The notes beneath the pieces were generated by a model. It saw only the letters and a list, made by a program, of their open reading frames with translations, was not told the DNA's origin and did no database searches. A stretch of DNA of 64,000 nucleotides. Source: Acidobacteriota bacterium (GTDB taxonomy: Bacteria; Acidobacteriota; Blastocatellia; Pyrinomonadales; Pyrinomonadaceae). Location of the stretch: contig JAIVJV010000008.1 of assembly GCA_020199835.1 (NCBI GenBank), positions 186,001 through 250,000 on the forward strand, written 5' to 3'. Positions 427 through 791 of the stretch are shown here, piece by piece; the stretch's first letter is position 1; the number at the start of each line of letters is the position of its first letter. Both the position numbers and the translations under genes were made by a program.

Positions 427-554
427 GTTTCACCTCGTGTGGCCCATTGGTTTGTGGGTTCATCGAGACGGCAGACGAGGGTGAACCACCGAACAGAGAG
501 GAAGATGGTGGGCGCAGCCGTAACAATACGGCCGGACTTCGGAAAGCGGAACAT
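423..554 (-). CDS. Possible 43-residue leader ORF overlapping the usp start
   Basis: A short minus-strand frame starts at an ATG at 552-554 with AAGGA 7 nt upstream. It ends at a TGA that overlaps the usp start codon (ATGA arrangement). The predicted peptide (begins MFRFPKSGRIVTAA) has no recognisable domain. Position between the riboswitch terminator and usp, a Shine-Dalgarno and the overlapping stop/start suggest translational coupling. A frame this short can occur by chance, and I see no independent coding evidence. Confidence 0.22.
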   Translation of the reverse strand: MFRFPKSGRIVTAAPTIFLSVRWFTLVCRLDEPTNQWATRGET

Positions 555-605
555 CCCCGATCCTTTCGCGCGTCGCGTTGTGGACATCTGAACGCCGCGC
601 AAAAG

Positions 606-641
606 AAAAAACCCTTTGCGCGCTGCGTCAGCCGCAAAAGG
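606..641 (-). terminator. Rho-independent terminator of the riboswitch expression platform
   Basis: On the minus strand CCTTTTGCG (641-633) and CGCAAAGGG (620-612) form a 9-bp stem with one G-U pair, followed directly by six T (611-606). The left arm is also the 3' strand of helix P1 of the upstream aptamer, so terminator and P1 exclude each other. That is the architecture of a transcription-controlling riboswitch. Confidence 0.75.
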
Positions 642-757
642 TCTTGGTCGTGGAGCTGCTTGTTTGCCCTACCTGATGCGCCGGGCGCCCAGCATCGGGC
701 ACCGTGTTGACGGCCACATCAGACCATAAAGGCAGGCGACCTACTCCCCTTTTCGTA
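636..757 (-). promoter_or_regulatory. yybP-ykoY-type manganese riboswitch
   Basis: The minus strand carries the conserved blocks of the yybP-ykoY family in order. First AAAAGGGGAGTAG (753-741). Then a P2 hairpin and CCGTCAACACGG (713-702). Then a P3 hairpin whose core is GATGC (696-692) pairing with GCATC (679-675). Last AAGACCTTTT (645-636). AAAAGG and CCTTTT close helix P1. In this family Mn2+ bridges the loops holding the CGUCA and AAGACC elements and switches expression on. Here that would keep P1 formed and prevent the terminator at 606-641. The usual clients are Mn exporters (MntP, TerC/Alx-like, UPF0016, P-type ATPases). A Usp as first gene is atypical. Identified by motif reading, not by a covariance search. 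Confidence 0.8.
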
Positions 758-762
758 CCGTG

Positions 763-791
763 ATTCTACAACTGATGACGAGCGAGTTCAA
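763..791 (-). promoter_or_regulatory. Sigma70-type promoter of the riboswitch/usp transcript
   Basis: On the minus strand a -35 TTGAAC (791-786) and a -10 TAGAAT (768-763) are separated by exactly 17 nt. The predicted start, about 6-7 nt further at 756-757, falls just before the first base of riboswitch helix P1. This supports both calls. The rest of the 427-880 gap holds nothing else I can name. Confidence 0.7.

Follow-up and report, generated by a model that had tools for sequence, protein, structure and literature searches.

A yybP-ykoY-class riboswitch, probably for Mn2+, ahead of a universal stress protein gene and a P2A-type ATPase gene in the Pyrinomonadaceae

In the window, a 64,000-nt stretch of contig JAIVJV010000008.1 from a member of the Pyrinomonadaceae, a structured RNA with an overlapping terminator precedes a gene for a universal stress protein (Usp), and the locus poses the question of which class the RNA belongs to, which signal it senses and which gene it serves. 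With high confidence we read it as a yybP-ykoY-class riboswitch that acts on transcription, is turned ON by Mn2+ and governs usp together with the gene for a P2A-type ATPase, Usp being an accessory gene. The riboswitch class and the ATPase client were known before; what is new, as far as we have searched, is that a Usp belongs to the regulon and that Rfam misses so large a set. The addition of a Usp to the clients links such a protein to one definite, testable signal.

Layout and class of the RNA

The locus is read leftwards on the minus strand, where a promoter (791-763), a 121-nt aptamer (754-634), a terminator (645-606) and a leader of about 180 nt precede usp, which starts at 426. The features are:

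786-791, minus: -35 element TTGAAC (promoter scan; consensus present in relatives)
763-768, minus: -10 element TAGAAT after a 17-nt spacer (promoter scan), predicted start about 757-755
634-754, minus: aptamer of the Mn2+ (yybP-ykoY) class, R1 match 123.8 bits, E 2.4e-31 (the window copy is among the 10 sequences of R1)
748-753, minus: 5' strand of the P1 switch helix, AAAAGG, pairing with 641-636; 5 of 6 pairs change on both sides in 73 sequences
741-747, minus: L1, GGAGTAG, with 749-748 forming GGGGAGTAG, which is found in 68 of 73 copies
738-741, minus: 5' strand of the helix adjoining L1, pairing with 649-646; 3 of 4 pairs change on both sides in 73 sequences
724-736, minus: short P2 hairpin, 736-735 with 725-724, only two firm pairs in the window sequence
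673-722, minus: P3 arm, P3a 722-715 with 680-673 and P3b 703-698 with 689-684
704-712, minus: L3, CGTCAACAC; CGTCA in 69 of 73 copies
653-669, minus: P4 hairpin, 669-666 with 656-653; gapped in about two thirds of the 73 copies and absent from the RNAalifold prediction
636-645, minus: AAGACC and the P1 3' strand CCTTTT (641-636), also part of the terminator stem; [AG]AGACC in 71 of 73 copies
606-645, minus: intrinsic terminator, hairpin and six T (611-606), -22.0 kcal/mol, z -4.77
431-436, minus: GAGGTG, likely ribosome-binding site of usp (read from the sequence)
1-426, minus: usp, two-domain universal stress protein of 290 aa (PF00582), running off the window (full gene L001:14555-15427)

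The promoter TTGAAC-N17-TAGAAT, which a preliminary description of this DNA had placed here, is found at 791-763 of the minus strand and is the sole promoter-like site within 420-860 (mean in shuffles 0.1). The order of elements given there, GGGGAGTAG (749-741), CCGTCAACACGG (713-702), AAGACC (645-640) and six T (611-606), is likewise present. The pattern TTGAA[ACG]-N17-TA[GA]A[AC]T recurs in five of the six loci L001, L016, L018, L019, L020 and L092, the exception being L019, and a promoter-like pair (at least 9 of 12 positions) stands just 5' of the riboswitch in 53 of the 73 copies described below, against 4 of 219 control positions.

A search of 97 genomes gave 10 places with the order GGGGAGTAG-N15-45-CGTCAACA, spread over 9 of the genomes, and one with the reversed pattern. 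A structure-free alignment of these 10 sequences, the window copy included (A1), was turned into the covariance model R1. A1 supports six helices; in 16 of the 31 pairs both bases vary while pairing is preserved, a value equalled by 0 of 500 shuffles. Pairing in A1 amounts to 93.7% and falls to at most 49% when partners are slid by 1-3 columns, a comparison that favours the proposed structure over the slid versions since it was drawn from the same sequences. RNAalifold independently recovered P1, the helix next to L1, the short P2, P3a and P3b from A1, with P3a shifted at its inner end and two extra pairs inside L3, and predicted no P4 from the 10 sequences.

R1 has matches in 56 of the 162 genomes searched within the class (E<=0.01) and in 26 of 396 genomes sampled across the phylum (E<=0.001), 4 of these 26 lying outside the class. 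The combined 73 riboswitch places are a lower bound, because both searches used strict filters and scored only part of the candidates. The weak matches L152 (31.0 bits), L147 (30.8) and L148 (26.1) are included in every count; L147, which has altered L1 and L3 and no recognised client, may be a false match. Across the 73 sequences, in an alignment that, unlike the 10-sequence one, was fitted to R1 and favours its structure, 29 of 31 pairs change on both sides, with a score of 0.543 as against 0.190 for shuffled and at most 0.120 for slid versions, and all pairs of P3a (8/8) and P3b (6/6) do so. Among the 63 copies not selected by pattern, GGGGAGTAG is found in 58, CGTCA in 59 and [AG]AGACC in 61. 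L1 (GGGGAGUAG) and then L3 (CGUCA) thus stand in the order typical of the class, and covariation of the secondary structure gives the multi-helix P1-P4 fold with arms meeting at L1/L3, the docking of the two loops being predicted.

R1, built without any E. coli sequence, was run with filters off on 8.5 kb of E. coli and ranks alx first (35.3 bits, E 9e-9) and mntP second (26.3 bits, E 3e-6), the next match having E 1.1; the two matches sit 80 nt (alx) and 114 nt (mntP) before their genes. The window RNA and these verified Mn2+ switches are therefore homologous, and L1 GGGGAGUA, L3 CGUCA (alx) or GUCAACA (mntP), P1, P3 and AGACC of E. coli align to R1. The two systems differ in their clients, alx and mntP there and Usp with a P2A ATPase here, and in the expression platform, as the mntP switch is described as translational (PMC11647493), whereas the window carries a terminator. 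By sequence, conserved structure, terminator overlap, gene order and homology to alx and mntP, the RNA is a member of the yybP-ykoY class.

A significant match to Rfam RF00080, whose absence the preliminary description had named as a refutation, was not obtained: the model gives no match in the window at the gathering score (45 bits), none at E<=10 within 400-900 and none in the whole genome. Yet the same model, on E. coli K-12, fails to detect alx at E<=1 and leaves mntP, at 41.6 bits, under the cut-off, so that its failure here is uninformative. When 72 of the 73 copies (L111 left out) were searched, 31 at E<=5 and 41 at the gathering score, none reached the cut-off, the only match being a full-length one of 23.5 bits at L011, before TerC. 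Over 97 genomes, RF00080 has matches in 14 at E<=1 and none above the cut-off; these 14 places, none of which coincides with an R1 place and seven of which align only to roughly model positions 49-83, were set aside. An RF00489 match overlapping the terminator (16.6 bits, E 1.1) was taken as chance. In the release 15 copy of RF00080 the P1 helix is absent and a long stretch at the 3' end is unpaired. It may be necessary to rebuild the family model, and a large set of likely Mn2+ riboswitches goes unreported by the public version.

Proposed switching and the probable metal site

The terminator hairpin at 645-606 was equalled in stability by 0 of 200 shuffles. A simple terminator scan passed it over, probably because the stem of the hairpin has a bulge, and picked out a weak 5-bp stem at 744-732 in its place. 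In 70 of the 73 copies the 3' strand of P1 is reused by the terminator, against 77 of 730 controls in which the rest of the sequence was shuffled. Computed without Mn2+ or kinetics, the cost of P1 over the best fold is 0.3-0.6 kcal/mol for 3' ends from 636 to 616 and rises to 7.1 at 611 and 10.1 at 606, because the terminator wins there; the modelled energy profile is that of a switch. The earlier proposal of a yybP-ykoY-type riboswitch with a terminator competing with P1 is thus borne out by homology, covariation and terminator overlap.

As Rfam returned no match, one might suppose a mere terminator that resembles the L1 and L3 motifs by chance, but covariation, promoter, terminator and gene context across 73 copies, together with the recovery of E. 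coli alx and mntP by R1, render this coincidence negligible in probability.

For the direction of the yybP-ykoY-class switch, a guide is the riboswitch before yoaB of Lactococcus lactis, an ON switch in which Mn2+ holds P1.1 and blocks the terminator (PMC11087558). The 3' strand of its P1.1 also forms the terminator, and P1.1 starts with A3 A4 A5 G6 G7, like P1 of the window (PMC11087558 and PMC9190785); it belongs to another phylum, and Usp as first gene is a feature of the window. By analogy, the window switch would also be an ON switch of the same logic. The RNA would start at about 757. At high cytoplasmic Mn2+, the ion would dock L1 (near G746) against L3 (A708) and hold P1 (753-748/641-636), which would deny CCTTTT to the terminator, and RNA polymerase would read through into usp and the P2A ATPase gene. 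At low Mn2+, AAGACCTTTTGCGG... would form the terminator and transcription would end near 606.

In the L. lactis RNA, the Mn site consists of G9, U39, C40, A41, U44 and C45, with P1.1 formed by A3-G7/C96-C102 (PMC9190785). Compared by sequence with the site as given there, G746, U710, C709, A708 and C704 of the window would be the counterparts of G9, U39, C40, A41 and C45, while A705 occupies the position of U44, so that five of the six site bases are identical; the U44 contacts run through the backbone/phosphate according to the same source. Positions were matched through the AAAGG with which P1 begins, the spacing UCA-xxx-C and the alignment with alx, not by aligning the L. lactis sequence directly. 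We equate A708 with A41, the adenosine that binds Mn, and on this comparison the RNA has the invariant adenosine and, apart from A705, the contact residues of the MB site.

Mn2+ is thus the probable ligand of the window RNA. It is improbable that in this clade an RNA of yybP shape responds to a different divalent ion or signal: ligand-changed variants seem likely among yybP RNAs (PMC7266159), and at nine related loci the RNA stands before carbonic-anhydrase genes, with bicarbonate-transporter genes in four, instead of Mn exporters, but the Mn-site bases are conserved (CGTCA in 69/73), also in those nine loci, and the window copy precedes a pump of a known Mn client type.

The probable operon behind the switch

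The product of usp matches PF00582 in two stretches (113.8 bits against a cut-off of 24, E 1.2e-32) and belongs to the family. The suspicion that the true client might lie further left proved sound, as extension of the contig in that direction uncovered a metal pump: only 37 nt after usp, on the same strand and to the left of the window (L001), follows the gene of a 908-aa P2A P-type ATPase with N-terminal, E1-E2, P-type and C-terminal cation-ATPase domains. Among NCBIfam models the ATPase fits the PMR1-type TIGR01522 best, with 764.2 bits, under the equivalog cut-off of 798.3, so that the protein is classed as a P2A ATPase only and Ca2+ is a possible main substrate. Bacterial Mn exporters include P-type ATPases (PMC9331361). 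Most likely, the ATPase of the window exports Mn2+, and the short distance to usp is consistent with co-transcription of the two genes. Its best solved relatives are chains of Calcium-transporting ATPase type 2C member 1, which we take to be a Ca2+/Mn2+ pump. The client of the L. lactis switch, yoaB, is a P-type ATPase as well. In Streptococcus pneumoniae, Martin et al. are said to have described in 2019 a Mn-sensing riboswitch before the Mn2+/Ca2+ ATPase gene mgtA, an arrangement like that of the window in that a Mn riboswitch stands ahead of a P-type ATPase client; we know of no Usp in the mgtA operon.

The gene order switch-Usp-ATPase is found in the genomes G000, G003, G005 and G013, with the contig of G005 (L019) ending inside the ATPase gene, while in G017 (L020) the order is switch-Usp-TerC and in G011 (L018) the switch directly precedes the ATPase gene with no Usp; at L149, too, an ATPase stands behind the switch without Usp. 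Usp as a fixed partner of the ATPase is ruled out by G011, which lacks Usp, and by G017, where Usp goes with TerC. When 119 genomes of the family were searched with this Usp, the top five hits (53-100% identity, E<=2.5e-91) proved to be the very five behind the riboswitch, and the sixth-best is 43% identical. As the five closest Usps all lie behind the switch, once with TerC, this type of Usp is, within the family, tied to the switch and not to one exporter.

These loci also bear on whether regulation is aimed mainly or solely at Usp, with the ATPase gene under a separate promoter and control. In those five loci no gene was recognised ahead of Usp, and the second gene at L020 is TerC, so Usp is not bound to the ATPase; yet only 37 nt separate usp from the ATPase gene, L018 and L149 have switch and ATPase without Usp, and behind each of the five Usps stands an ATPase or TerC gene (at L019, an ATPase gene in which the contig ends). 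A Usp-centred regulon is therefore unlikely, if marginally less so than a changed ligand. The proposal that a Usp extends the regulon stands insofar as the five closest Usps make it an added member, and falls, with G011, for a sole or primary client. Most likely the riboswitch controls a Usp-ATPase operon, in which Usp would be an accessory gene that joined a metal-efflux operon in this lineage; our best guess is that it assists the pump, or the cell during Mn stress.

The Usp frame of G013 contains one TGA. The leader (427-603, minus strand) has a GCGCGAAAGGA...ATG stretch, present also in L016, L019 and L020, which may be a leftover start site predating Usp insertion; a similar GCGAAAGGA precedes the TerC start at the TerC locus L011. 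Four less similar ATPase genes of the genus (L158, L159, L161 and L163) have no switch in the upstream sequence examined. The window's own genome gave no further riboswitch, the next R1 match having only 13.5 bits (E 9.35), and its TerC locus L164 has no R1 match within the 3.6 kb examined.

Clients of related riboswitches and inorganic carbon

Within 5 kb downstream of the 73 copies, or less where contigs end, the clients are TerC (51), HtpX (11, of which 9 also with TerC), P-type ATPase (6) and Usp (5). TerC, HtpX or a P-type ATPase lies downstream in 59 of the 73, a raw count with no chance rate alongside. The membrane protease HtpX is the first recognised gene at L012, L013, L014, L101, L102, L104, L106, L112, L121, L122 and L150. 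Co-purification of HtpX and TerC-family proteins from Bacillus subtilis (PMC10246235) suggests that the two work together. The other 14 places comprise two with less than 500 nt of sequence, nine with carbonic-anhydrase genes, L147, where nothing downstream was recognised, and L119 and L152. At L119 (5025-5129) an R1 match stands before a gene for a CNNM/CorC-type protein and at L152 (3981-4086) a weak one (31 bits) before a gene for a Na_Ca_ex-type protein; both genes are possible further metal clients.

Seven of the nine carbonic-anhydrase loci are iota-like. L113, L114, L116, L123, L127, L128 and L129 each encode a 180-207-aa protein that carries HHSSLPY or HHSSLQY close to the C-terminus; that of L113 matches solved iota-carbonic anhydrases with E 8e-79 (7c5x) and 1.4e-43 (7c5v) and, as query, finds the other six at E<=4e-68. 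A gene for an Sbt_1-type bicarbonate transporter comes next in L113, L128 and L129, and a DUF2490-like gene comes first in L113, L114 and L116. At L131 the riboswitch precedes a beta-carbonic anhydrase gene (PF00484, E 3.8e-36), at L136 a beta-carbonic anhydrase resembling that of L131 (E 1.1e-97) is followed by an Sbt-like gene, and at L145 a DUF2490-like and an Sbt-like gene come after TerC. In the literature searched, which mostly excludes subscription papers, neither Usp nor Sbt nor carbonic anhydrase is described as a yybP-ykoY client.

Tentatively, and with more doubt than conviction, we consider that the Mn2+ riboswitch regulon of the Pyrinomonadaceae may exceed Mn export and include a Usp acting with the exporter and, in related genomes, an inorganic-carbon module of iota- or beta-carbonic anhydrase, Sbt_1 bicarbonate transporter and DUF2490 protein. 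If so, carbon supply would come under Mn2+ status and these iota-carbonic anhydrases would use Mn2+. The metal of the iota class is disputed, with Mn, Zn or none proposed (PMC8425729), and the presence of the RNA before iota-like genes bears on which metal, if any, the class uses.

Two loci contain two riboswitch copies each. At L102 (303-1458) one copy lies 5' of HtpX and the second, which separates HtpX from TerC, 5' of TerC, while at L143 (304-2243) one copy stands before each of two TerC genes.
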